Shown: in pieces, positions 10,192 through 58,528 of the stretch
How the letters are laid out: each line of letters begins with the position of its first letter
Numbering within the stretch: the first letter of the stretch is position 1
Source: Luminiphilus syltensis NOR5-1B
Lineage (GTDB): Bacteria > Pseudomonadota > Gammaproteobacteria > Pseudomonadales > Halieaceae
DNA length: 64,000 nucleotides
Direction of reading: 5' to 3'
Assembly: GCF_000158175.1 (NCBI RefSeq)
Contig: NZ_DS999411.1
Location: 1,026,596 to 1,090,595, forward strand
Translations under genes and position numbers: made by a program
Notes under the pieces: model-generated
The model's database searches: none
Told to the model about the DNA's origin: nothing
The model's input: only the letters and a program-made list of their open reading frames with translations

Positions 10192-11640
10192 TCAGGGTCG
10201 CCAGAAGGCGGGAGTGAACAGTACCAGCAGCGTAAATACTTCCAGTCGACCCAGCAGCATGGCAACACATAGTAAGCACTTGCCAATCTCAGATACGGCA
10301 CTGTAATTGGGCGCTACCAGCCCCAGGCCCGGGCCCAGGTTGTTCATCGATGCGGCGACTGCAGAAAATGCCGAGGTGAAATCGAGGCCGGTGGCGAGCA
10401 TTAGCAACATAAAGGTAACGAAGCAGAACATGTAGACCGCGAAGAAGCTCCATACGGCGCTTACCGTGCTCGGTTGCACGCGCCGCGCATCCAGCTTAAG
10501 TGGAATGACGGCGTTGGGGTGAAGCAACTGCCTGAGCTCGCGCATACCCTGACGAAAGATGAGCAGCAGGCGCATGGCTTTCATACCGCCACCGGTTGAC
10601 CCCGCGCAGCCCCCCATGAAAGACAGCATCAACAAAAATACCGGGAGGAATATGGGCCACACCGAAAAGTCCCGGGTTGCAAATCCGGTTGTGGTGGCGA
10701 TCGAGACGGTTTGAAATAGCCCATGGACGAGTCCCTCCTTCACGTCGAGGGTATCGGTCACGATCAATGTACTGCAGGTGACGACAATGGCGATAACCAC
10801 CACGGCACTAAAAAACTTGGTTTCCGAATCATGGTTATAAACATTCAGTGATCGGCGCTGAAAGGCAATGAAGTGCAGGCCAAAGTTGATCGCTGATATC
10901 ACCATGAAAAAGGTGCAGATCAGCAGGATTTTATCGTTATCAAAAAAGCCCATACTGGCGTCATGGGTCGAGAAGCCGCCGATGGCCACGGTGGAAAATG
11001 CATGGCAGATGGCGTCAAAACCCGACATACCTGCCGCATAGTAGGCGGCGGCACACAGTGAAGTGAGACCGACGTAAATACTGAATAGCGCTTTTGCCGT
11101 TCCCGTCACTCGGGGAGTGAGTTTCCGCTCCTTGGCATGTCCCGAACTTTCTGCGCGAAAAAGCTGCATGCCCCCGATGCCCAGCATGGGCAGAATCGCG
11201 ACGGCGAGCACAATAATACCGATGCCCCCCAACCACTGGAGTAACTGGCGATAGAGCAGTATTGAGCGTGGCAAGTCGTCGAGGCCTACGATGACCGTTG
11301 CCCCGGTCGTCGTTAATCCGGAGATGGATTCAAAGATCGCGTCGATTGCCGACATGTGGATAGCGTCACTCAATATAAACGGCAAGGAGCCAAAGACGCC
11401 CAGAACAATCCAAAACAGCGCGGTGACCAGAAAGCCGTCACGAATCCGAAGGTCAGAACGACTGCGCCGCGTCGGTAACCAAAGCGCGGCACCCGCGAAA
11501 ATATTGATGGCAAACGCAGCTGCAAAAGCGTTGGCTGAGCCGTCCCGCTCAACCAGGCCCAAGACCAGCGAGGGCAGCATGGCGGTGCTGAACATCACCA
11601 ACAGCACGCCCATGATTCGCAGGGAGACGCTGATATGCAT
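10192..11640 (-). CDS. trkH: Trk potassium uptake system membrane subunit TrkH
   Basis: 482 aa integral membrane protein with about ten hydrophobic helices and selectivity-filter-like segments such as SGLTTTGATV, IGGFSTHDAS, TTGFATRDFS and GGCAGSTGGGMKAMR, the quasi-repeated P-loops of the TrkH/KtrB family. It forms the K+ channel that TrkA gates. Its ATG at 11640 shares one base with the trkA stop (TAATG), which implies translational coupling. It is convergent with djlA. Confidence 0.96.
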   Translation of the reverse strand: MHISVSLRIMGVLLVMFSTAMLPSLVLGLVERDGSANAFAAAFAINIFAGAALWLPTRRSRSDLRIRDGFLVTALFWIVLGVFGSLPFILSDAIHMSAIDAIFESISGLTTTGATVIVGLDDLPRSILLYRQLLQWLGGIGIIVLAVAILPMLGIGGMQLFRAESSGHAKERKLTPRVTGTAKALFSIYVGLTSLCAAAYYAAGMSGFDAICHAFSTVAIGGFSTHDASMGFFDNDKILLICTFFMVISAINFGLHFIAFQRRSLNVYNHDSETKFFSAVVVIAIVVTCSTLIVTDTLDVKEGLVHGLFQTVSIATTTGFATRDFSVWPIFLPVFLLMLSFMGGCAGSTGGGMKAMRLLLIFRQGMRELRQLLHPNAVIPLKLDARRVQPSTVSAVWSFFAVYMFCFVTFMLLMLATGLDFTSAFSAVAASMNNLGPGLGLVAPNYSAVSEIGKCLLCVAMLLGRLEVFTLLVLFTPAFWRP

Positions 11641-13013
11641 TAGAGGAAGCCGAAGCCCACGGCAAAGAGCTTCTCCACCGCGGAAATCTGGCTGCGATCA
11701 GTCAGGAATAGAATCACATGATCATCGGGTTCGACCACCACATCGCTGTGGGCGATCACCACTTCTTCGCCGCGTAAAATGGCACCTACGCCGACACCGT
11801 TGGGCAATTTCAGTTCGTCGAGACGTCTGCCGATCACCTTCGATGACCGCGCGTCACCGTGGGCTGTAAGCTCAATAGCCTCGGCGGCACCGCGCCGTAA
11901 CGAGTGCACGTTGCCAATATCTCCGCGGCGGACATGGGTGAGTAGGCTGCCGATGGTAATCTGTTGCGGCGATATGGCGATGTCGATTTCTTTACCGACC
12001 AGGTCAGCGTAGGCCGAATTGGTGATCAGCGTGATCACCTTTTTCGCGCCGAGTCGCTTGGCGAGCATCGACATCATGATGTTGGATTCATCGTTGTTGG
12101 TCAGTGCGCAGAACACGTCGGTATTTTCGATGTTTTCCTGCACCAGAAGCTGGGGCTCGTTGGCACTGCCGTTGAGCACAATGGTCTCTTCGAGAATCTC
12201 TGACAGTGCACGGCAGCGGTCGTAGGACACTTCAAGCACCTTAACCTGGTAGTCGCGCTCCAGTCTCGATGCCAGCGTCGCGCCGATGTTGCCACCGCCG
12301 GCGATCATTACGCGCTTGTAGGGCTCATCAATGGTTCGGAGTTCTGCCGTGACCGCGCGGATATTCTCCCGAGCGGCGATGAAAAACACTTCGTCGCCGG
12401 GTTCAACAATAGTATTGCCCTCGGGGGTGATGGGCTTGGAGTCTCTGAAAATGGCGGCAACGCGGGTATCGATGTGGGGCATGTGCTTGCGCAATTCGGA
12501 AAGCTCCATGCCGACAATGGGCCCACCTCTAATAGCTCGCGCCGCGACCAGGCGGATTCTGCCCTCGGCAAAATCGACGACTTGCAGCGAGCCCGGGTTG
12601 GCGATGAGTTGTTCGATGTTGTTGGTGACCAGCTGCTCGGGACCGATAATCACATCGACCGGTATGGCGTCAGGCCGGAACAGGCGATCCCCTTTTTGCA
12701 AGTAATCACCCGATCGGATTCGGGAGATCTTGAGTGGGGTTCGGTACAGCGTAAACGCGACCTGGCAGGCCATCATGTTGATTTCGTCGCTGTTGGTGAC
12801 GGCCACCAGAAGATCGGCGTCCTCCGCTCCCGCGTTGAGTAGCGTGGTCGGGTGGGCGGCATCCCCCTGTACGGTGCGGATATCCAGCCGCTCCTGCAGC
12901 GCGCGCAAGGTGCTCGGCTGATTGTCCACAACCGTGATGTCGTTTTGTTCATCGGCCAGATGTTCGGCGAGGGTGCCACCGACCTGCCCCGCTCCAAGGA
13001 TGATGATTTTCAC
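11640..13013 (-). CDS. trkA: Trk system regulatory NAD(H)-binding subunit TrkA
   Basis: 457 aa peripheral cytoplasmic protein built as a tandem duplication. The first RCK/Rossmann unit begins with IIILGAGQVGGTLAEHL (GxGxxG at about residues 7-12). The second begins with VMIAGGGNIGATLASRL near residue 230. Each unit is followed by a TrkA-C domain. It binds NAD(H)/nucleotides and controls TrkH. The start is GTG at 13013, with AGGAGA upstream. It heads the trkA-trkH pair and lies 98 nt after rsmB, in the usual gene order. Confidence 0.96.
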   Translation of the reverse strand: MKIIILGAGQVGGTLAEHLADEQNDITVVDNQPSTLRALQERLDIRTVQGDAAHPTTLLNAGAEDADLLVAVTNSDEINMMACQVAFTLYRTPLKISRIRSGDYLQKGDRLFRPDAIPVDVIIGPEQLVTNNIEQLIANPGSLQVVDFAEGRIRLVAARAIRGGPIVGMELSELRKHMPHIDTRVAAIFRDSKPITPEGNTIVEPGDEVFFIAARENIRAVTAELRTIDEPYKRVMIAGGGNIGATLASRLERDYQVKVLEVSYDRCRALSEILEETIVLNGSANEPQLLVQENIENTDVFCALTNNDESNIMMSMLAKRLGAKKVITLITNSAYADLVGKEIDIAISPQQITIGSLLTHVRRGDIGNVHSLRRGAAEAIELTAHGDARSSKVIGRRLDELKLPNGVGVGAILRGEEVVIAHSDVVVEPDDHVILFLTDRSQISAVEKLFAVGFGFL

Positions 13014-49109: not shown

Positions 49110-49931
49110 GTGGTGGCAGCGCTCCCAAGACTCGACAGCGGCGCGGTTTATCGGCAGTGGCTTCCCGCTCACACGCCCGTGGCAACCCTGCTGCTGCTTC
49201 ACGGGCTGGGTGAGCATTCCGGTCGCTATCAAGCGCTGGGCGAGCGGTTCGCGCAGCGTGGCATCGCCGTTTTTGCACTGGACCATCGGGGTCACGGTCA
49301 GTCGCCAGGCCCCAGGGTTAATGTGCGTCATTTTGATGACTACCTCCCGGATGCGCGGGCGCTGCGTCGCGTCATCAATAATCAGTACCCCGAACTGCCC
49401 TGTTTTTTGCTGGGGCATAGCATGGGTGGGTTGATGGCAGCGCGCTTACTGCTCGAAGACCAGAGTGACTATCAGGGCGTGATGTATTCCGGTCCTGCGT
49501 TCGCCGCCGCCGAGCCACCGTCGCCACTGCTGATGGGAATCGCTCGGTCACTGGCGAAAGTGTTCCCGGGCACTGGATTGATGGCGCTCGATGCCTCTGG
49601 GGTTAGCCGCGATCCTGACGTGGTGGCCGCTTATGAGGCAGATCCACTGGTTCATCATGGCAAAATCACCGCAGGTCTGGGTGTGGCATTGTTTGACGCC
49701 ATGGATCGTGTCATGGCCGGCGCTGCGGATCTGACGTTACCCACGCTGATTATGCATGGTGGTGCGGATACCCTGGCCACGCCCGGCGGGTCCAGGGACT
49801 TTTTTGATCGCCTGTCTTCCGCAGACAAGACCCTCGACATTCTTCCCGGTCTTTACCATGAGATCTTCAATGAACCCGAGGGACCATCGGTCATCGATCA
49901 GTATATCGACTGGGTAATGGCACGATTGTGA
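49110..49931 (+). CDS. Alpha/beta hydrolase, monoacylglycerol lipase/lysophospholipase type
   Basis: 273 aa. Serine hydrolase with LLLLHGLGEHSGRY (oxyanion region), nucleophile Ser in LLGHSMGGLMA (about residue 110), Asp in MHGGADTLATP, and His in LYHEIFNEPEG. The last block is characteristic of the monoglyceride lipase group. It probably cleaves a lipid ester, but the substrate is unknown. GTG at 49110 (or 49113). It joins ilvE (2 nt) to rmlD (4-nt overlap), so all three are likely co-transcribed. Confidence 0.88.
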   Translation: MVAALPRLDSGAVYRQWLPAHTPVATLLLLHGLGEHSGRYQALGERFAQRGIAVFALDHRGHGQSPGPRVNVRHFDDYLPDARALRRVINNQYPELPCFLLGHSMGGLMAARLLLEDQSDYQGVMYSGPAFAAAEPPSPLLMGIARSLAKVFPGTGLMALDASGVSRDPDVVAAYEADPLVHHGKITAGLGVALFDAMDRVMAGAADLTLPTLIMHGGADTLATPGGSRDFFDRLSSADKTLDILPGLYHEIFNEPEGPSVIDQYIDWVMARL

Positions 49932-50833
49932 GTACGGTACCCACGGTCCTTTTACTGGGTGCAAACGGCCAGCTCGGCAGCGAGCTGCAGTTCACAAAAC
50001 CCGGTGATACTGAGCTGATTGCCTGCGCGCGCACGGATCTGGATATTGCCGATACCGATGCCTTGCAGCGGGCTTTCACCCGTTATCGATTTCAGAGTGT
50101 TATCAACGCGTCCGCCTATACCGCGGTGGATGCCGCAGAGACGGAGCGTGAAGCAGCGCACGCGGTGAATACCAAAGGGCCGGCCCGATTGGCGGATCTT
50201 TGTGCAGCACACGGGGTGCGCCTGCTTCACATTTCTACCGATTTTATTTTCGATGGCATGAAAGGGTCACCGTATCGGATTGATGACACCCCCAATCCAC
50301 TGGGTCACTACGGCGTTACCAAGTTGGCAGGCGAGCGAGCGGTACTGGGTAGTGGAGCCGACGCGCTGGTGGTTCGGACCGGATGGGTGTATTCCGCCCA
50401 GGGCAGTAATTTTGTTCGTACCATGCTGCGACTCATGGCCGAGCGCGACCGATTGTCTGTGGTAGAGGACCAGGTGGGCACTCCGACCTGGGCGAGGGGG
50501 CTGGCAAACGTTTGCTGGACACTGCTGGCTGACCCCGGGGCATATGGCTGTTACCACTGGAGCGATGCCGGGGCCTGCAGTTGGTACGATTTTGCGGTGG
50601 CCATTGCCGACGAGGCGAGCCGCATCGGCCTCCTGGATCGCGCCCCCGCCATCGTTCCAATACCCAGCAGCGACTACCCCACGCCGGCGCGGCGTCCTGC
50701 CTACAGTGTTCTTGACAAAACCGGCACCCGCGAGCGTTTGAATTACCCGGGCGTTCATTGGCGCGAGGCATTGCGGTCAATGCTGCTCGAAGTGCCTCAC
50801 AGTAGTAACGGTCAGGAGTCCGGTCATGGCTAA
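49928..50833 (+). CDS. rmlD: dTDP-4-dehydrorhamnose reductase
   Basis: 301 aa SDR-type enzyme. Last step of dTDP-L-rhamnose synthesis. LLLGANGQLGSEL (NAD(P) binding), the ISTDFIFDG Thr and the YGVTKLAGE motif (Tyr-x3-Lys). GTG start overlaps the preceding stop by 4 nt, and the end overlaps rmlB by 8 nt. Confidence 0.95.
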   Translation: MSTVPTVLLLGANGQLGSELQFTKPGDTELIACARTDLDIADTDALQRAFTRYRFQSVINASAYTAVDAAETEREAAHAVNTKGPARLADLCAAHGVRLLHISTDFIFDGMKGSPYRIDDTPNPLGHYGVTKLAGERAVLGSGADALVVRTGWVYSAQGSNFVRTMLRLMAERDRLSVVEDQVGTPTWARGLANVCWTLLADPGAYGCYHWSDAGACSWYDFAVAIADEASRIGLLDRAPAIVPIPSSDYPTPARRPAYSVLDKTGTRERLNYPGVHWREALRSMLLEVPHSSNGQESGHG

Positions 50834-51893
50834 GGCATTGATGGTAACTGGGGCCGCGGGGTTCATCGGCGCCAACTTTGTTCATTACTGGGCAGAGAAG
50901 TACCCCGGCGATACCTTGATTGCCTATGACGCGCTGACCTATGCCGGCAACCGTAACAGTCTGACCGAACTGGAGGACGCCGGTAAACTGGTATTCGTGC
51001 AGGGTGATATTTGTGACCCCGACTGTGTTTCGCAAACCCTGCGCGACCATTCGGTTGATACCCTCGTGCATTTTGCCGCCGAGAGCCACGTCGACCGCTC
51101 CATCACCGGCCCGGACGCTTTTATTCGCACCAATCTTGTCGGTACCCATACCCTGCTCGCAGCGGCCCGGGAGTTCTGGTTAAGCGGGTCGGGCCTGCCC
51201 CACCGCTTTCACCACGTATCCACCGATGAAGTCTTTGGTTCACTGACAGCCGAAGCACCTGCTTTCCGCGAAGACCTGCGATATGAGCCGAATTCACCCT
51301 ATTCAGCCTCCAAGGCCGGCAGTGACCACCTGGTACGCGCTTACCACCACACCTATGGATTGGAGGTCACCACCAGCAATTGTTCCAATAATTACGGGCC
51401 CTACCACTTTCCCGAAAAGCTGATACCCCTGTGTCTGACCAATATCCTGGATGGCAAACCGCTGCCCGTTTATGGCGATGGCAGCAATATCAGGGACTGG
51501 CTCTACGTGGTCGATCATGCGCGGGGAGTCGACGCTGTGCTATCGAGTGGCGAGGTGGGTGAGACCTATAACATCGGTGGGATCAATGAATGGCGCAATA
51601 TCGATATTGTTGAACTGCTCTGCGAACAAATGGATCAGTTGTTTAGCGAACGTCCGGAGCTTGCGCGACGGTTTCCCCATTCACCCTGTAGCCGGGGAGA
51701 GTCCGCTGCGTCGTTGATTACTTTTGTTGAGGATCGGGCGGGCCATGACTGGCGCTATGCGATTGATGCGGGAAAGATCGGTCGCGAGCTGGGATTCGTC
51801 CCCGAAGAAACCTTTGCAACCGGACTTAAAAAGACCCTGCACTGGTACGTCGAAAACGAACCCTGGTGGCGACCGCTGCTGATTCGCCGCTAG
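50826..51893 (+). CDS. rmlB: dTDP-glucose 4,6-dehydratase
   Basis: 355 aa extended SDR. Converts dTDP-glucose to the 4-keto-6-deoxy sugar. MVTGAAGFIGANFVHY (NAD), FAAESHVDRSI, the catalytic HVSTDEVFG (Thr-Asp-Glu) and PYSASKAGSDHLV with Tyr-x3-Lys. Overlaps rmlD by 8 nt and is convergent with rmlC (20-nt gap). Confidence 0.97.
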   Translation: MAKALMVTGAAGFIGANFVHYWAEKYPGDTLIAYDALTYAGNRNSLTELEDAGKLVFVQGDICDPDCVSQTLRDHSVDTLVHFAAESHVDRSITGPDAFIRTNLVGTHTLLAAAREFWLSGSGLPHRFHHVSTDEVFGSLTAEAPAFREDLRYEPNSPYSASKAGSDHLVRAYHHTYGLEVTTSNCSNNYGPYHFPEKLIPLCLTNILDGKPLPVYGDGSNIRDWLYVVDHARGVDAVLSSGEVGETYNIGGINEWRNIDIVELLCEQMDQLFSERPELARRFPHSPCSRGESAASLITFVEDRAGHDWRYAIDAGKIGRELGFVPEETFATGLKKTLHWYVENEPWWRPLLIRR

Positions 51894-51913
51894 CAGCCCC
51901 GGGCAATGCGCGA

Positions 51914-52465
51914 TTAAAAGCGGAACAGAGGGACTTGATCGATGGGCAGTCCTGTTGCGTCTTTGGCCGATAATTGTGGTGGTTGATCGTTCACCAGCGG
52001 CCACTCTATGCCTACGGACGGATCATTCCAGGCGAGGGTCAGCTCGCTCTCGGGATGGTAGTAGTCGCTGCATTTGTAGAGAAAGTCCGCGCTCTCACTG
52101 AGCACATAGAAACCGTGTGCGAACCCGGGTGGAATCCACAGTTGCTCATGGTTGCTTGCCGATAGCGTCGCCCCGTACCACTGGCCACAGGTGGGTGAAT
52201 CGGCCCGCAAATCGACCACCACGTCAAACACGGACCCGCTGGTCACCCGGACAAGCTTGCCCTGGGTTTGCTCGGTCTGGAAGTGGAGCCCCCGAAGAAT
52301 GCCCTGTCGCGAGCGACTGTGGTTATCCTGGACAAAGTGAACATCGATACCGGCGTCAGCGTAGGTACGCTGGTTCCAGGCCTCCAGAAAAAACCCGCGC
52401 TCGTCTCCGAACACCCTGGGTTTGAGCAACATGACCCCTGAAAGCGGTGTGGTTTCACATTCCAT
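51914..52465 (-). CDS. rmlC: dTDP-4-dehydrorhamnose 3,5-epimerase
   Basis: About 183 aa cupin. Catalytic His in [12 protein letters not shown], Asp in [11 protein letters not shown] and Tyr in [15 protein letters not shown] 52465 is the usual start and overlaps rmlA by 11 nt; an upstream extension of the frame lies in rmlA. Confidence 0.96.
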
Positions 52466-53363
52466 CGAAGTAAACCCCCTGCTCTTCAACGAGCGCCTGC
52501 AGGTACTCACCGTAACCGCTTTTTACCAGAGGCGCGGCCAGCGCCAGCAGTTGCTCAGCGGAGATATAGCCCATCCGATAGGCAATCTCTTCAGGACAGG
52601 CAATTTTCAGTCCCTGTCGTTCTTCGACTACCCGGATGAAGCTTCCCGCATCCAGTAGCGAGTTGTGTGTTCCCGTATCCAGCCACGCAGTGCCGCGGGA
52701 CATGACTTCGACCTGCAGTTCGCCACGTTCCAGATAAAGGCTGTTGATATCGGTAATTTCGAGTTCCCCCCGGTGTGAGGGTGTGATCTTCTTGGCAAAA
52801 TCGATGACCTGGTTGTCATAAAAATAAAGCCCCGTCACTGCGTAGTGCGATCGCGGTTTGACGGGCTTTTCCTCGATAGCGATGGCCTTGCCCGCAGCAT
52901 CGAAGTCAACGACCCCATAGCGCTCTGGATCCTGCACATAGTAGGCAAATACCGATGCGCCCGCCTCGCGGTTGGCAGCGCTGCGCAGCTTGGCGGTGAA
53001 CCCGCCCCCATAAAAAATGTTATCCCCCAGAACCAGTGCCACCGGAGAGCTGCCGATAAAGGATTCACCGAGCAGGAACGCCTGCGCCAGGCCGTCGGGG
53101 CTGTCCTGCACCGTATAGCTCAGTGTGAGACCCCACTGTTCGCCGTCTCCCAAAAGATCACTGAACGCCTGTTGGTCCCGGGGTGTCGTGATGATCAGGA
53201 TGTCGCGAATACCTGCCAGCATCAGCGTCGCCAGCGGGTAGTAGATCATTGGCTTGTCATACACGGGCATCAGCTGCTTGCTCACGGTCGTCGTCAGCGG
53301 ATGCAATCGGGTGCCTGATCCACCGGCGAGAATGATGCCCTTGTAGGGTGAGGAATGTGCCAA
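52455..53363 (-). CDS. rmlA: Glucose-1-phosphate thymidylyltransferase
   Basis: About 302 aa. Makes dTDP-glucose. [17 protein letters not shown] (nucleotide-binding Gly-rich loop), [28 protein letters not shown]-like [14 protein letters not shown] and [19 protein letters not shown]. The start TTG 53363 is chosen since GGAG sits 6 nt upstream; the frame remains open to 53507 with unconserved sequence. Divergent from the glycosyltransferase gene. Confidence 0.95.
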
Positions 53364-53534
53364 AGGGTCGCTCCAAACAGTTTCTGCAACGCCCCAGTTT
53401 ACCGTTGCCGTAACCCGCTTGTCCCCTGCGATTGCGAGTGGTCGGGTGTTACACTGATTCCGACTAGCCACACCGAGAGTCTTCCCATTAACGCCCCGAT
53501 CACACATCCCTCCCGGCCCGCCGGCGCCCGTGCA

Positions 53535-54782
53535 TTGCCGCCAGTAGCGACAGGAATACCGCTGCGAATAGCACTGCTGGGTTATCGCTCATCACCCTAT
53601 TCGGGAGGGCAGGGCGTTTACCTGAAGTACCTGAGTCGCGGGCTGAAACACCTGGGGCATGAAGTTTCTGTCATCTCCGGGCCGCCCTATCCCGAGCTCG
53701 ATGAGGGTGTCGCGCTGGTAAAACTACCGAGCCTGGATCTCTATCAAAATGGTTTACGTTCCCTGCGTACCCACCACCTGAGTGATCGCCTTGCCATCAT
53801 CGAATGGTTGAGTAAATTAAGCGGCGGTTTTGCTGAGCCCTGGACGTTCGGTGAGCGTGCCCGGGAGTGGTTGCTTGCCCACCGCGATCAGTTCGACGTG
53901 GTGCACGATAACCAGACCCTTGCGGATGGCATTTTCGATATCCAAAAGGCGGGTATACCGCTGATTACGACCATCCATCACCCCATCTCTCGGGATTTAC
54001 GTCATGCATTGCAGCAGGAGCCGCAACTCCATCGGCGTTTATTTCTCAGGCGCTGGCACTTGTTTCTGCGTATGCAGTCTCGCGTTGCGCGAAAGCTCAA
54101 TCATCTGGTAACGGTTTCGACGCCGTCCAGAGACGATATCGTCTCGGACTTTGGCGTCGATTCATCGCGCTTGAGTGTGCTGCCCAATGGGGTGGATACG
54201 GCCTTGTACAGGCCACTACCGGGTGTTCGTCGTCATCACTGCCAGATCATGGCGATCGCCTCGGCTGACGTCCCCATGAAGGGTTTGTCGGTGTTGCTCC
54301 GTGCTGCGAGCGAGCTGTTAGCGCACTTTCCCGACCTGCAGCTGCTGCTGGTCGCGAAGCCCCGACCGGGCGGCGAGACTGAGCGGCTCATTGACGCTCT
54401 GGATCTCAGCGCGCGCGTGCGCTTTGTCAGTGATATCAGCGATGAGGAGCTGGTGCGCCACTACGCCGAATCGACGCTGGCGGTGGTGCCATCGCTGTAC
54501 GAGGGCTTTGGTCTACCGGCGGTAGAGGCCATGGCCTGTGGGGTGCCGCTGGTGTCCTCCGATGGCGGCGCGCTTGCAGAAGTTGTCGGCGACGGCGGGG
54601 TTCTGGTGCCCGCCGGCAATGCCGGCGCCCTGGCTGGGGCCGTGGCCGGTTTACTGAGCAACCCGGAAAAGCGCCAGCAACTGGCAAAAAGAGCGCGTGC
54701 CCGAGCCGAGCAGCGTTTCTGCTGGAACGTGTGTGCCGCCAAAATGGTTGACCATTATCGACGGGTCATTGCGTCGTGTTGA
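53535..54782 (+). CDS. Glycosyltransferase family 4 protein
   Basis: About 415 aa from TTG 53535; the frame is open from 53355, but no start has a good RBS and no part before [10 protein letters not shown] looks conserved. GT-B fold: N-terminal domain with [21 protein letters not shown], a TIHHPISRD segment, and C-terminal domain with [43 protein letters not shown], the EGFGLPxxE nucleotide-sugar motif of GT4. Retaining transferase, donor unknown; dTDP-rhamnose from the adjacent genes is one candidate. Overlaps the following methyltransferase gene. Confidence 0.88.
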
Positions 54783-55516
54783 CCGTGGATTTTGGCTGGT
54801 TGGCGCTCGGGGGTGGTCAACGCTGCCTCGATCTGGGTTGTGGAGAGGGGCGTCATACTCTGGCGGGATACCTGAGGGCGGATGTGGATATGGTCGGGGT
54901 TGATCTCGCTTCGGCCGACTTGCTGACGGCACGATCCCGCATTGGCGACATGGCCGGGTACCATCCTCAAGGCCAGGTCGTTTTTTTCCGCGCCGATGCG
55001 CTCAGACTCCCGTTTCCAGACGCCAGTTTCGATCGCATTATTTGCAGCGAAGTCCTCGAGCATATTCCCAACTACTTGTCGGTTATCGAGGAGATTGACC
55101 GTCTGCTGAAACCCGGTGGGCGACTGTGTATCAGTGTTCCCAGGGCGTGGCCGGAGCAGATTTGCTGGTGGTTGAGCCGGGAGTATCGAACGACCCCCGG
55201 GGGGCATATTCGTATCTTTCGTCGATCAGACTTGTGCCGCGAGGTAGAGCGACAGGGTTTTCGTTACTACCATGGTCATGGAGCCCATGCGTTACACGTA
55301 CCTTATTGGTGGCTGCGATGTCTTTTTTGGCGGCAGGGCGCCGAGCACTGGCTGGTAAATCAGTATCACCGCCTGTTGGTCTGGGAGCTGACAACGGGGC
55401 CGCGTTTCATGCGCTGGATTGATAGGTTTCTGAATCCGTTTATGGGCAAAAGCGTGGTGATGTATTTTAAAAAGGTGGGTACTTCGTCTGGCGAGAAAAT
55501 GGATGTCGCGCAATGA
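54776..55516 (+). CDS. Class I SAM-dependent methyltransferase (Methyltransf_11 type)
   Basis: 246 aa. CLDLGCGEGRHTL (motif I), MVGVDLASADLL, DALRLPFPDASFDRIICSEVLEHI and LLKPGGRLCISVPR. The C-terminal third is rich in Trp, Tyr and His (HIRIFRRSDLCREVERQGF, YWWLRCLFWRQGAEHWLVNQYHRLLVW), which suggests membrane or lipid contact. Start GTG 54776 overlaps the GT stop; stop overlaps the next ATG. The substrate is unknown, possibly the glycan or lipid made by its neighbours. Confidence 0.85.
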   Translation: MLTVDFGWLALGGGQRCLDLGCGEGRHTLAGYLRADVDMVGVDLASADLLTARSRIGDMAGYHPQGQVVFFRADALRLPFPDASFDRIICSEVLEHIPNYLSVIEEIDRLLKPGGRLCISVPRAWPEQICWWLSREYRTTPGGHIRIFRRSDLCREVERQGFRYYHGHGAHALHVPYWWLRCLFWRQGAEHWLVNQYHRLLVWELTTGPRFMRWIDRFLNPFMGKSVVMYFKKVGTSSGEKMDVAQ

Positions 55517-56592
55517 ACAGCATCTTCCTGACCCCCGGGAATTTTCCTCAGGAGTTTCTCCGACCCACCGTGGAATTCCTGCTGTTATCGCAAACCCAAG
55601 AGGGGGAAATACCCTGGTTTGAGGGTGGTCATTCTGATCCCTGGGATCATACCGAGGCCGCTATGGGCCTGGCGCTGGCGGGGGAGCTCAGCGCCGCCAG
55701 ACGCGCGTATCGTTGGTTGGCGAACACCCAGCTGGAAGATGGAAGCTGGTGGCGCTGTTACCGCGAAGGTAAACCCCACGAGCCTGATCGGCGCGAGAGC
55801 AATTACGTCGCCTATATGGCTACCGGTGTCTGGCACTACTATTTACTCACGGCGGATCGCGAATTCCTTCAGGAGCTGTTTCCCACCATCGATCGGGCGA
55901 TGGCCTTTGTGCTCTCGCTGCAGAGCGAACACGGTGATATTGATTGGGCGGTCGATGCCGATGGATCTCCCAAAGGGGATGCGCTGGTCACCGGCTGCAG
56001 CTCGATTTACAAGAGCATGGAATGTGCTCTCCACATAGCTGCGGTACTCGATACACCGCGCCCGCACTGGCAGGCAGGACGGGCGCTGCTGGGTGACGCA
56101 CTGCGCGCTCGCCCCGACCGTTTCGATCGTACCTGGGCCAGTAAATCCCGCTACGCCATGGATTGGTTTTATCCGGTGCTCACAGGAGTGATCGAGGGTG
56201 ATGCAGCGGTTGCACGAATCAATGACCGCTGGCACGAATTTGTGCAGCCGGGCCTGGGTTGTCGTTGCGAAGTGCAGGAGCCCTGGGTAACCGTGGCGGA
56301 GTCCTGCGAGCTGGTGCTGGCGCTAATGGCCGTCGGTGATCAACGGCGCGCGGCTCTGGTGTTTAGTTGGTTACTGCAATGGCGAGCGGATGACGGCGCC
56401 TGGTGGACGGGCTACCAATTTGCCGACAAGGTCCTCTGGCCCGATGAAAAACCAACCTGGACGGCAGGAGCCGTACTGCTCGCCGCGGATGCGTTGACTG
56501 GCTTTTCGGGTGCCTCCCGCTTGTTTCTGGATGTGGTTCCCTTCGGGGCGGCACCTGCAGGGCATTTGGCGAGAACGTCGGCACAGCCCTAA
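55513..56592 (+). CDS. Alpha/alpha-toroid protein (six-hairpin glycosidase/prenyltransferase-like), unknown function
   Basis: 359 aa, all helical. Repeating helix pairs with Trp/Gly-rich motifs: TQEGEIPWFEGGHSDPWDHT, LANTQLEDGSWWRCY, RRESNYVAYMATGVWHYYLL, WRADDGAWWTGYQF and WPDEKPTWTAGAVLLAAD. The pattern is that of the alpha/alpha toroid seen in GH15-like glycosidases and terpene cyclases; databases often label such proteins 'prenyltransferase'. No DxDD cyclase motif is seen, but acidic residues in PWDHTEA and DALVTGCSSIYKSME could be catalytic. It overlaps the methyltransferase by 4 nt and is convergent with the second methyltransferase (overlap of 4 nt). Confidence 0.75.
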   Translation: MNSIFLTPGNFPQEFLRPTVEFLLLSQTQEGEIPWFEGGHSDPWDHTEAAMGLALAGELSAARRAYRWLANTQLEDGSWWRCYREGKPHEPDRRESNYVAYMATGVWHYYLLTADREFLQELFPTIDRAMAFVLSLQSEHGDIDWAVDADGSPKGDALVTGCSSIYKSMECALHIAAVLDTPRPHWQAGRALLGDALRARPDRFDRTWASKSRYAMDWFYPVLTGVIEGDAAVARINDRWHEFVQPGLGCRCEVQEPWVTVAESCELVLALMAVGDQRRAALVFSWLLQWRADDGAWWTGYQFADKVLWPDEKPTWTAGAVLLAADALTGFSGASRLFLDVVPFGAAPAGHLARTSAQP

Positions 56593-57194
56593 AGCTTTCT
56601 CAGCAGGCGCAGACTGCCCGTTTGGCCGTTGCTTTGAAAGAGTCCCGATTGTTGAGCCAGTTGCCAGATTGCGAAGGGAGCCTGGCCACCGAGCGCCGGA
56701 TCGGGGAACACATCGTGAATCGCCAAACAACCGCCCTGAACAATACGGGGAGCCCAAGTGCGGTAGTCCGAGAGCGCGGAATCAAGACTGTGGCCGCCGT
56801 CGATAAAAACCATACCGAGGGGGCTGTGCCAGTGTCTCCCCAGAACCGCTGAGTCCGCCACGACCGGAATAACAAAGGCCTCAAGTCCGCTTTTTTTGAG
56901 ATTACGGCGAAATTCCGGGAAGGAGTCGAGATCCCCGTCCGCGTCGGTCAGCGCGGGGTCGTGGAAAAACTCTCCCGGCTGATGCTCTTCAGAACCTCTG
57001 TGGTGATCCACGGCAAAAACGACGGTGTTATTGCGCTGCGCCGCCTGCGCCAGCCACAGTGTAGACCGGCCGCAATAGCTGCCGATTTCCAGCGCCGGCC
57101 CGATTCGGGTTGCTTCGAGCGCGGCGTCGTGCAGCGCGGCGCCTTCGACATTGTCCATAAATCCACGCACGAGATCGTTCGGTGGGGTGGCCAT
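56589..57194 (-). CDS. Class I SAM-dependent methyltransferase (Methyltransf_24/CmcI-like)
   Basis: 201 aa. ALEIGSYCGRSTLWLA (motif I), VFAVDHHRGSEEHQ, GMVFIDGGHSLDSALSDYRTW and GGCLAIHDVFPDP. The IDGGH...D..W and HDxF motifs are those of Methyltransf_24 proteins, metal-assisted O-methyltransferases of sugars or small molecules. ATG 57194 with GGAGAT upstream. Divergent from waaA (56 nt). Its 3' end overlaps the toroid gene. Confidence 0.83.
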   Translation of the reverse strand: MATPPNDLVRGFMDNVEGAALHDAALEATRIGPALEIGSYCGRSTLWLAQAAQRNNTVVFAVDHHRGSEEHQPGEFFHDPALTDADGDLDSFPEFRRNLKKSGLEAFVIPVVADSAVLGRHWHSPLGMVFIDGGHSLDSALSDYRTWAPRIVQGGCLAIHDVFPDPALGGQAPFAIWQLAQQSGLFQSNGQTGSLRLLRKL

Positions 57195-57250: not shown

Positions 57251-58528
57251 ATGACACGGTTTTTGTATTCTATTTTGATGCGTCTGAGTGTGCCGATAGT
57301 GCTGGCGCGCTTGTTGTGGCGTTCGCGGCGAAATCCCGGTTACCGCGCGCAACTCCGCCAGCGGCTGGGTTTTGATCTTCCCGTTACCGGTAGCTCGGGA
57401 CCCATGGTATGGATTCACGCCGTATCCGTCGGTGAAACACTGGCGGTGGCGCCACTCATAGAGTCATTGTTGAGCAGTCTCGGTGAGCGGCGATTGCTGG
57501 TTACCTCGACGACCCCTACCGGTGCGGCGCAGGTACAACGCTTATTTGGCGATCGGGTATTGCGCACCTGGTTTCCCATCGACACCCCCGGTGCCGTCCG
57601 TCGACACCTCGATCACTGGCAACCCGGTGTTGTGGTGCTGGTGGAAACTGAGATCTGGCCCAATCTGATTCACGGCTGTGGTTTGCGCGATTGCCCGGTG
57701 CTTTTGGTGAACGCACGATTGTCCGCGCGCTCGGCGCGGGGCTACGCCAGGCTCGGCGATTTGTCACGGGAGGCGATAGGCGGGCTGCGCCATATCGCCT
57801 GCCAGAGCCGGGCCGACGCGCGCCGTTTTAAAATGCTGGGTGGTGCATCGGAGCAGATTTCGGTGGTGGGCAGCATTAAATACGATATCGATATAGCGCA
57901 GCTTAAGGACGGCCGTGATGCGTTGATGGCTATCATCAGTCCGGGTAACCGGCGTTGGATCCTGGTAGCGGCCAGCACCCACCCGGGTGAGGAAGAGATC
58001 GTTGTGAACGCCTTCAAAGACTTGAAAGAACAACGCCCCGACGCACTGTTGGTGCTCGCTCCACGGCACCCGGAGCGTTCCAACGCAGTGGCAAAATTAG
58101 TGCAGAGCGCAGGCCTCCGCTTGATGCGACGAACCGAGTCCAGACCGGTGGCTAGCTACGACGACGTTTTGCTTCTGGATACCCTCGGTGAATTGGCGTT
58201 GGCTCAGGGTACGGCCAGACTTGCCTTTATTGGCGGCAGTCTGGTGTCCCGCGGCGGACACAACCCTCTGGAGGCCGCCGCCTGGGGTGTGCCCGTTATC
58301 AGTGGCGCATCGGTCGACAACTTTGCGACGATTTATCGGGATTTGACGCGCACCGGTGGCGCTCTTGTTCTGCAGCCAAAGGAGAACCTTGGGACCTGTT
58401 TAGTGAGGCTTGCGGCAGATGAGGAGCGCCTGCAATCAATGGGCGTGGCGGGGCAGCGATGGGTAGCGGAGAAACGTGGCGCACTGGATCTTCAGTGCGC
58501 TCTGATTCAGAGCTACTACTCTGACTGA
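57251..58528 (+). CDS. waaA: 3-deoxy-D-manno-octulosonic acid (Kdo) transferase
   Basis: 425 aa, GT30. Adds Kdo to lipid IVA at the inner membrane. N-terminal anchor (YSILMRLSVPIVLARLLW), catalytic Glu in IHAVSVGETLAVAPLI, LVETEIWPNLI, ILVAASTHPGEEE, LVLAPRHPER and IGGSLVSRGGHNPLEAAAWG. Last gene of the envelope stretch; its 3' end overlaps that of the convergent tolC by 13 nt. Confidence 0.96.
   Translation: MTRFLYSILMRLSVPIVLARLLWRSRRNPGYRAQLRQRLGFDLPVTGSSGPMVWIHAVSVGETLAVAPLIESLLSSLGERRLLVTSTTPTGAAQVQRLFGDRVLRTWFPIDTPGAVRRHLDHWQPGVVVLVETEIWPNLIHGCGLRDCPVLLVNARLSARSARGYARLGDLSREAIGGLRHIACQSRADARRFKMLGGASEQISVVGSIKYDIDIAQLKDGRDALMAIISPGNRRWILVAASTHPGEEEIVVNAFKDLKEQRPDALLVLAPRHPERSNAVAKLVQSAGLRLMRRTESRPVASYDDVLLLDTLGELALAQGTARLAFIGGSLVSRGGHNPLEAAAWGVPVISGASVDNFATIYRDLTRTGGALVLQPKENLGTCLVRLAADEERLQSMGVAGQRWVAEKRGALDLQCALIQSYYSD

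Follow-up and report, generated by a model that had tools for sequence, protein, structure and literature searches.

What does a compact set of four genes, encoding a glycosyltransferase, two methyltransferases and a toroid-shaped protein, do in the genome of a marine gammaproteobacterium? We analyzed such a cassette in Luminiphilus syltensis NOR5-1B (Halieaceae), within a 64 kb stretch (the window) of the single-contig 3.26 Mb genome. A first-pass annotation, made from the letters of the window, had found no pathway it could name and had suggested a methylated glycolipid or a modified lipopolysaccharide (LPS) or capsule sugar. That pathway does have a name: three of the proteins match structures from work on the mycobacterial methylmannose polysaccharide (MMP), which mycobacteria build and recycle inside the cell, and the fourth stands in the place of the MMP methyltransferase pMeT3. 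On these comparisons, the cassette is very probably an MMP-type biosynthesis and recycling cluster, with a free cytosolic MMP-type glycan as its likely product.

Identity of the four proteins

The first gene, manT (53535..54782, + strand), encodes a GT4/Glycos_transf_1 protein by Pfam, and phmmer matched its product to PDB entry 7qsg with 47% identity (E 3.7e-100; next entry 3.2e-25). Together with the conserved residues described below, this match marks ManT as an α-(1→4)-mannosyltransferase homologue. The toroid protein is encoded by mmpH (55513..56592, + strand). Pfam gave it two weak glycoside-hydrolase matches (MGH1-like_GH and GH95), both below the cut-offs; phmmer aligned residues 7-340 to 7qsj (E 1.1e-92, 45% identity), which points to a homologue of the (α/α)6-barrel α-(1→4)-endomannosidase, or MMP hydrolase. 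The product of the fourth gene, meT1 (56589..57194, - strand), belongs to Methyltransf_24 and has a sole PDB match at E ≤ 0.001, to 6g7d (E 2.5e-53, residues 7-200, 48% identity). That entry is named 'Methyltransferase domain protein', and we take it to be MeT1; the window protein would accordingly be a homologue of the reducing-end mannoside 1-O-methyltransferase. Among the NCBIfam matches listed (for the first two proteins, the best 25 of 47 and 48), none was over its cut-off for any of the four proteins.

Between manT and mmpH lies meT3 (54776..55516, + strand), which encodes a class I S-adenosylmethionine-dependent methyltransferase (Methyltransf_23/11) and putative mannose 3-O-methyltransferase. 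The PDB sequence search returned generic methyltransferase matches only, and a fold search with the predicted structure (pLDDT 93.4) likewise found only generic class I methyltransferases, RebM and AtmM being the best. MeT3 shares 42-45% identity with its counterparts in Nocardia, Nonomuraea and Nocardiopsis, where the gene likewise intervenes between manT and mmpH, and 33 aligned orthologues share 40 invariant columns. We assigned it to pMeT3 by its position and by its identity to the syntelogues of these three actinobacterial genera. In the MMP cluster of M. hassiacum, the order is MHAS_04402 (ManT, 7QSG), 04403 (pMeT3), 04404 (MmpH, 7QSJ) and 04405 (MeT1) (PMC9883506), and the gene order in the window is the same. 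The genome also provides for GDP-mannose supply, with a GMP_PMI protein (TIGR01479) scoring 706 bits against a cut-off of 373.

The essential residues of ManT and MmpH are present in the window. H142, K240, E313 and E321 of mycobacterial ManT correspond to H148, K249, E323 and E331, and D47, D50, E262, E265 and W315 of MmpH to D42, D45, E263, E266 and W316; D47 and D50 are the acid candidates of the mycobacterial hydrolase and E262 its base (PMC9883506). We followed these positions through two sets of relatives. The first, of 39 MmpH sequences, combined 35 loci fetched from the class with the window, Nonomuraea and two genomes from a different class of the phylum. Those 35 comprised all 8 matches outside the order, 18 of the 19 matches from other genera of the order (all but G073, which ends at a contig edge) and 9 of the more than 50 matches from the genus. 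The second set (88 MmpH and 80 ManT sequences) partly overlaps the first, and one truncated ManT row per set was excluded from positions that it did not reach. E262, E265, W49, M215 and Y219 of MmpH were kept in 39/39 and D47 in 38/39 sequences of the first set, and all six were kept in 88/88 of the second. ManT H142 and K240 were retained in all 38 rows reaching them and in 80/80, and E313 and E321 in 39/39 and 80/80. In MeT1, 35 positions were kept in at least 97% of 77 rows. The single departure at D47 among the 39 sequences is a Glu in locus L040 (genome G133), where no meT1 lies within 2 kb downstream.

A toroid of this shape might carry either a glycosidase acid pair or a prenyl pocket, and predicted structure separated the two. 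The AlphaFold2 model of the window MmpH (pLDDT 92.8) fitted two 7qsj chains with TM scores of 0.89-0.93 at 1.7 Å, with D42, D45 and E263 kept, and the other 48 of the 50 chains listed gave TMq values of 0.40-0.76. A prenyl or terpene cyclase was ruled out by the MmpH match (1.1e-92) and by terpene-cyclase folds reaching just TMq 0.51-0.53 among those 50 chains. With the catalytic-base Glu retained and MmpH as the top structural match (TM about 0.9), the earlier notion of a methylated sugar polymer served by a glycosidase-type toroid was well placed.

The four open reading frames (ORFs) lie as the first-pass annotation described them, with overlaps of 7 nt between manT and meT3 (54776-54782), 4 nt between meT3 and mmpH (55513-55516), and 4 nt between the 3′ ends of mmpH and meT1, which meet tail to tail (56589-56592). 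The start of manT is uncertain: it may be TTG 53535 or ATG 53355, as the frame is open back to 53355 and these two are the only in-frame ATG, GTG or TTG codons between 53355 and 53600.

Conservation and spread of the cassette

The grouping seen in the window recurs widely. The order manT, meT3, mmpH on one strand was found in all 35 fetched class loci, including one in which manT is cut by the contig end and L041, in which about 2 kb separates manT from meT3; a convergent meT1 lay inside the fetched stretch in 31. We also scanned 84,980 species' genomes, found at least 592 relatives, and took the best 80 against a divergent query. Among these best 80, 70 named loci extend more than 2.5 kb upstream, and every one of them shows the same order; they come from gamma-, alpha- and deltaproteobacteria, SAR324, actinobacteria and one haloarchaeon. 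In L149, from a deltaproteobacterial metagenome-assembled genome (MAG), meT3 is split over two frames. Where more than 1.5 kb was available downstream (74 of the best 80), a convergent meT1 followed within 1 kb in 58 loci and meT1 occurred anywhere in the locus in 65. Seven of the nine loci lacking a local meT1 carry the gene elsewhere in the genome; a genome search did not find it in Natrinema gari or in the L149 MAG.

Co-occurrence extended to whole genomes. Among 97 genomes (that of the window strain and its relatives), MmpH was detected in 71 (E ≤ 1e-10) and MeT1 in 70 (E ≤ 1e-20), with agreement in 96/97; in the sole exception, G046, mmpH lies at a contig edge. The gene arrangement is far beyond chance, and the search of gene neighborhoods, with the toroid beside its three partners in so many lineages, bears out the earlier proposal of one functional unit. 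The first-pass annotation would have been refuted had the four genes never been seen together in other genomes; they are found together widely. Downstream of the complete mmpH in L063 (genome G064), a short second mmpH-like fragment (11483-11674) covers residues 281-345 at 58% identity and is perhaps a remnant of a tandem duplication.

Sampling at different depths revealed a patchy distribution with dense pockets. A sample across the class contained MmpH in 9 of 369 genomes and a sample across the phylum in 5 of 398, the window's own genome included in both. In the SAR86 order, here that of SAR86 cluster bacterium AG-319-O13, by comparison, 131 of 151 genomes, of 0.7-1.8 Mb, carried it (two or so as partial matches), and MeT1 accompanied it in 20/20 carriers tested. 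In one group of SAR86 genomes, MmpH is only 31-37% identical to the query, unusually divergent for a single order. In the class of Natrinema gari (haloarchaea), MmpH was found in 15 of 194 genomes. The order manT, meT3, mmpH held in 14/14 further haloarchaeal genomes, and eight of these triads lie on contigs longer than 1 Mb, so contamination is unlikely. MeT1 was found at E ≤ 1e-5 in 0/15 haloarchaeal MmpH carriers, which thus have a three-gene form. Of the 15 haloarchaeal loci (L191-L204 and L097), two, L195 and L097, have just upstream of the triad a gene for an isopentenyl-diphosphate-isomerase-like protein (best NCBIfam match 117 bits, cut-off 127), and a relative falls inside the fetched stretch of the other 13.

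We then considered whether the cassette could be an actinobacterial cluster that the window strain gained recently and that is of marginal value to it. Two points favor this: the best-known relatives of the cassette are mycobacterial, and its occurrence at class level (9/369) is patchy. A FastTree phylogeny of concatenated ManT, MeT3 and MmpH, midpoint-rooted only, was built for 78 of the 89 rows with MmpH; rows that lacked a MeT3 or a long ManT were removed, but M. hassiacum was kept although the set includes no MeT3 sequence for it. Actinobacteria (n = 6, support 1.0) and alphaproteobacteria (n = 15, support 0.999) formed separate clades, and the window grouped with the Luminiphilus rows inside the gammaproteobacteria. 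SAR324 was nested among the gammaproteobacteria, a Syntrophaceae row stood next to the actinobacteria, and the SAR86 rows were apart from other gammaproteobacteria, L046 (genome G126) having the longest branch. The tree does not have the appearance of a recent transfer from mycobacteria, yet it is no clean species tree either. Carriage by 71 of the 97 genomes (that of the window strain included) and 131 of the 151 SAR86-order genomes also speaks against recent arrival, as does composition, the GC content of the cassette (0.56-0.62) being similar to that of its surroundings. Phage or plasmid carriage was dismissed: no phage match to the cassette appeared, and the lone plasmid-record match was an 11.85 Mb Nonomuraea record. 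We regard recent acquisition as highly improbable.

Proposed product and competing explanations

By homology to the M. hassiacum enzyme, ManT would extend α-(1→4)-mannosides from GDP-mannose, and MeT3, whose counterpart is putative even in mycobacteria, would methylate O-3 of the added mannoses. MmpH would cut the mature chain internally, yielding two pieces, one carrying the 1-O-methyl cap and the other with its reducing end free; MeT1 would cap that free end, and ManT and MeT3 would regrow both fragments, which would prime new chains. This cycle of cutting, capping and regrowth follows the recycling model for MMP (PMC9883506), and it would yield a polymer of about a dozen 3-O-methylmannose units, soluble in the cytosol. 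MeT1 works on a free 1-OH, so a soluble glycan with no carrier attached is to be expected. Consistent with this, 19-residue Kyte-Doolittle means revealed no clear membrane segment in the four proteins (no signal-peptide predictor was used), the highest values in the three other than ManT being 0.80-1.40. For the window cassette, we infer the enzyme activities, the product and its location in the cell from these combined analyses.

Several points weigh against this assignment. In ManT, the 19 residues that start at 356 have a Kyte-Doolittle mean of 1.68, just over the 1.6 used as a rule of thumb for membrane segments, though they lie inside a domain that is soluble in 7qsg. Gammaproteobacterial cassettes are often flanked by ilvE, waaA and tolC, a neighborhood of the LPS core. 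The methyltransferase pMeT3 is still putative in mycobacteria themselves, without biochemical proof (PMC9883506). Position D50 of MmpH, whose loss drastically lowers the activity of the mycobacterial enzyme (PMC9883506), is Asp in 30 and Asn in 9 of the 39 sequences, and Asp in 65 and Asn in 23 of the 88; the window has Asp. Finally, D293 of ManT, a proposed guanine contact (PMC9883506), varies widely, with Asp in 4/38 and 13/80 rows; the window has Asp (D303), and the donor could differ in some relatives given this poor conservation.

The residue variation raises the question of whether MMP-like enzymes make a different glycan here, through another donor or linkage; examples would be a methylated glucan or, with the rml genes adjacent, a methylated rhamnan. 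Besides D293 and D50, N101 of MmpH varies in some lineages, the 15 haloarchaeal genomes have no MeT1, and 45-48% identity leaves specificity free to change. The window itself nevertheless keeps D303 in ManT and D45 and N97 (Asn, equivalent to N101) in MmpH, its genome encodes GDP-mannose synthesis, and the components stay together, which points to the same substrate chain. Furthermore, the rml genes are not near the cassette in many of the 35 fetched class loci. We regard a different glycan as unlikely.

A further rival reading is LPS decoration: ManT and MeT3 would add a methylated mannan to the core or O-chain, and MmpH would trim that mannan. As the first-pass annotation noted, the cassette lies between the dTDP-rhamnose genes, with rmlD and rmlB (+) and rmlC and rmlA (-) at 49928..53507 on its left, and waaA (Kdo transferase, 57251..58528, + strand) on its right, all over an NCBIfam cut-off; we treat these as neighbors outside the system. 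In many gammaproteobacteria, the cassette similarly sits between ilvE/rml and waaA/tolC, and waaA is within about 5 kb in three fetched SAR86 loci. A lipid A acyltransferase gene is near 5, and a PfkB/cytidylyltransferase (HldE-like) gene near 12, of the best 80 named loci, and a 3-O-methylmannose O-chain occurs in Oligotropha (PMC9883506).

What tells against the LPS reading is the composition and host range of the set. A lipid-linked chain has no free reducing end for MeT1 to cap, and MeT1 co-occurs with MmpH even when unlinked. None of the four genes encodes a carrier-lipid enzyme, polymerase, flippase or ligase, and none of the proteins has a clear membrane segment. Actinobacteria carry the four-gene set and haloarchaea the triad, and neither group has LPS. 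ORFs flanking 8 non-gammaproteobacterial loci (9 proteins) were not LPS genes or had no Pfam match. The earlier suggestion of a methylated glycolipid or an LPS or capsule sugar is thereby disfavored, through the capping of a free end by MeT1, the lack of carrier-lipid, polymerase and ligase genes, and the actinobacterial and haloarchaeal carriers; we consider LPS decoration quite improbable, and retain the free MMP-type glycan as the preferred product.

Neighboring genes proved fruitless as a clue to function outside the gammaproteobacteria, where they belong to unrelated families. The flank sample took one or two ORFs, not always the nearest, from each of the 8 non-gammaproteobacterial loci and one SAR86 ORF, giving 10 proteins: 4 had no Pfam match, and the others were O6-methylguanine-DNA methyltransferase, radical SAM/B12, metallo-beta-lactamase fold, pyridine-nucleotide disulphide oxidoreductase, Na/Ala symporter and luciferase-like proteins. 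Ten recurrent neighbors, namely a hexapeptide transferase, an alpha/beta hydrolase, an ABA4-like protein, an SDR, an ABC transporter, an enoyl-CoA hydratase, MoeA, the lipid A acyltransferase, the PfkB/cytidylyltransferase and one unmatched protein, shared no theme. A Hydrolase_4 (alpha/beta hydrolase) gene lies between ilvE and rmlD in the window (49110-49931), and the gene also accompanies the cassette in 8 of the 9 loci fetched from the genus. The hexapeptide-repeat transferase gene is near the cassette in 9 of the best 80 named loci (L140:9695-10471, L146, L149, L130, L139, L099, L152, L143 and L087; Pfam was run on one), which span gamma-, alpha- and deltaproteobacteria and SAR324. Its product is a candidate O-acyltransferase, of interest given that acetylated MMP is known from Streptomyces griseus.

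Physiological role and relation to known systems

In mycobacteria, a role proposed for MMP, though no defining feature of the pathway, is the buffering of products, or the modulation, of type I fatty acid synthase (FAS-I). We searched for the FAS-I marker PF08354 and did not find it in the window's genome, nor in 43 of the 44 MmpH carriers tested, some of whose genomes are incomplete; the sole positive was G847 (Aeromicrobium), and the control, C. glutamicum, gave a match. With the caveat that one family stands for FAS-I, the missing marker speaks against FAS-I control as the general role of the MMP cassette. The MMP study is framed in terms of acyl-CoA and the metabolism of fatty acids, and FAS-I is not named in it (PMC9883506). 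There, MMP and the mycobacterial 6-O-methylglucose lipopolysaccharide (MGLP) are proposed to sequester acyl-CoA, and MMP-negative M. smegmatis is reported to grow more slowly at 15 °C (PMC9883506).

We lean slightly towards the view that MMP-type methylmannans are an old and widespread class of soluble glycan in the cytosol, produced by most marine bacteria of the SAR86 and Luminiphilus types, by other proteobacteria and, with no 1-O-methyl cap, by some haloarchaea. Their original job would have been independent of FAS-I, perhaps as an amphipathic carrier of acyl-CoA, isoprenoids or other hydrophobic metabolites, or as a cold or osmotic protectant. Haloarchaeal membranes are isoprenoid. If SAR86 bacteria, with genomes of about 1.2 Mb, retain the MMP pathway and haloarchaea its three-gene form, the mycobacterial fatty acid rationale is a local specialization at best.

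The MMP study assigns the polysaccharide to mycobacteria and a few of their actinobacterial relatives, and its survey of the genes covered mycobacteria, eight related actinobacteria and Hoyosella (PMC9883506). The terms proteobacteria, gammaproteobacteria and Gram-negative are not in the main text of that paper, and we found no report of the cluster outside Actinobacteria, weak negative evidence with subscription journals mostly uncovered. Our comparisons suggest that an MMP-type polymer may be made far more widely than thought, common ocean bacteria included. What is new is the distribution, above all in SAR86 and haloarchaea. If this holds, a neglected methylated mannan may belong to marine organic carbon, many proteins without a specific name would gain a function, and the question of what MMP does would become open to direct tests in non-pathogenic marine isolates in culture.

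Set beside known systems, the window cassette shares with the mycobacterial MMP cluster (ManT, pMeT3, MmpH and MeT1; PMC9883506; 7qsg, 7qsj and 6g7d) the four families, their order, the essential ManT and MmpH residues and a GDP-mannose supply. It differs in that its proteins are 45-48% identical to the three solved ones, and in its host, which is Gram-negative and marine, yielded no FAS-I marker and places the genes in an LPS-core neighborhood. The acetylated MMP of Streptomyces griseus (mentioned in PMC9883506) is of the same polymer class, whereas no acetyltransferase lies next to the window cassette. MGLP (PMC4555173, PMC2674218) is built from a different sugar. Collectively, the system is of a known kind and its hosts are the unexpected part; the cassette itself is ordinary once named.

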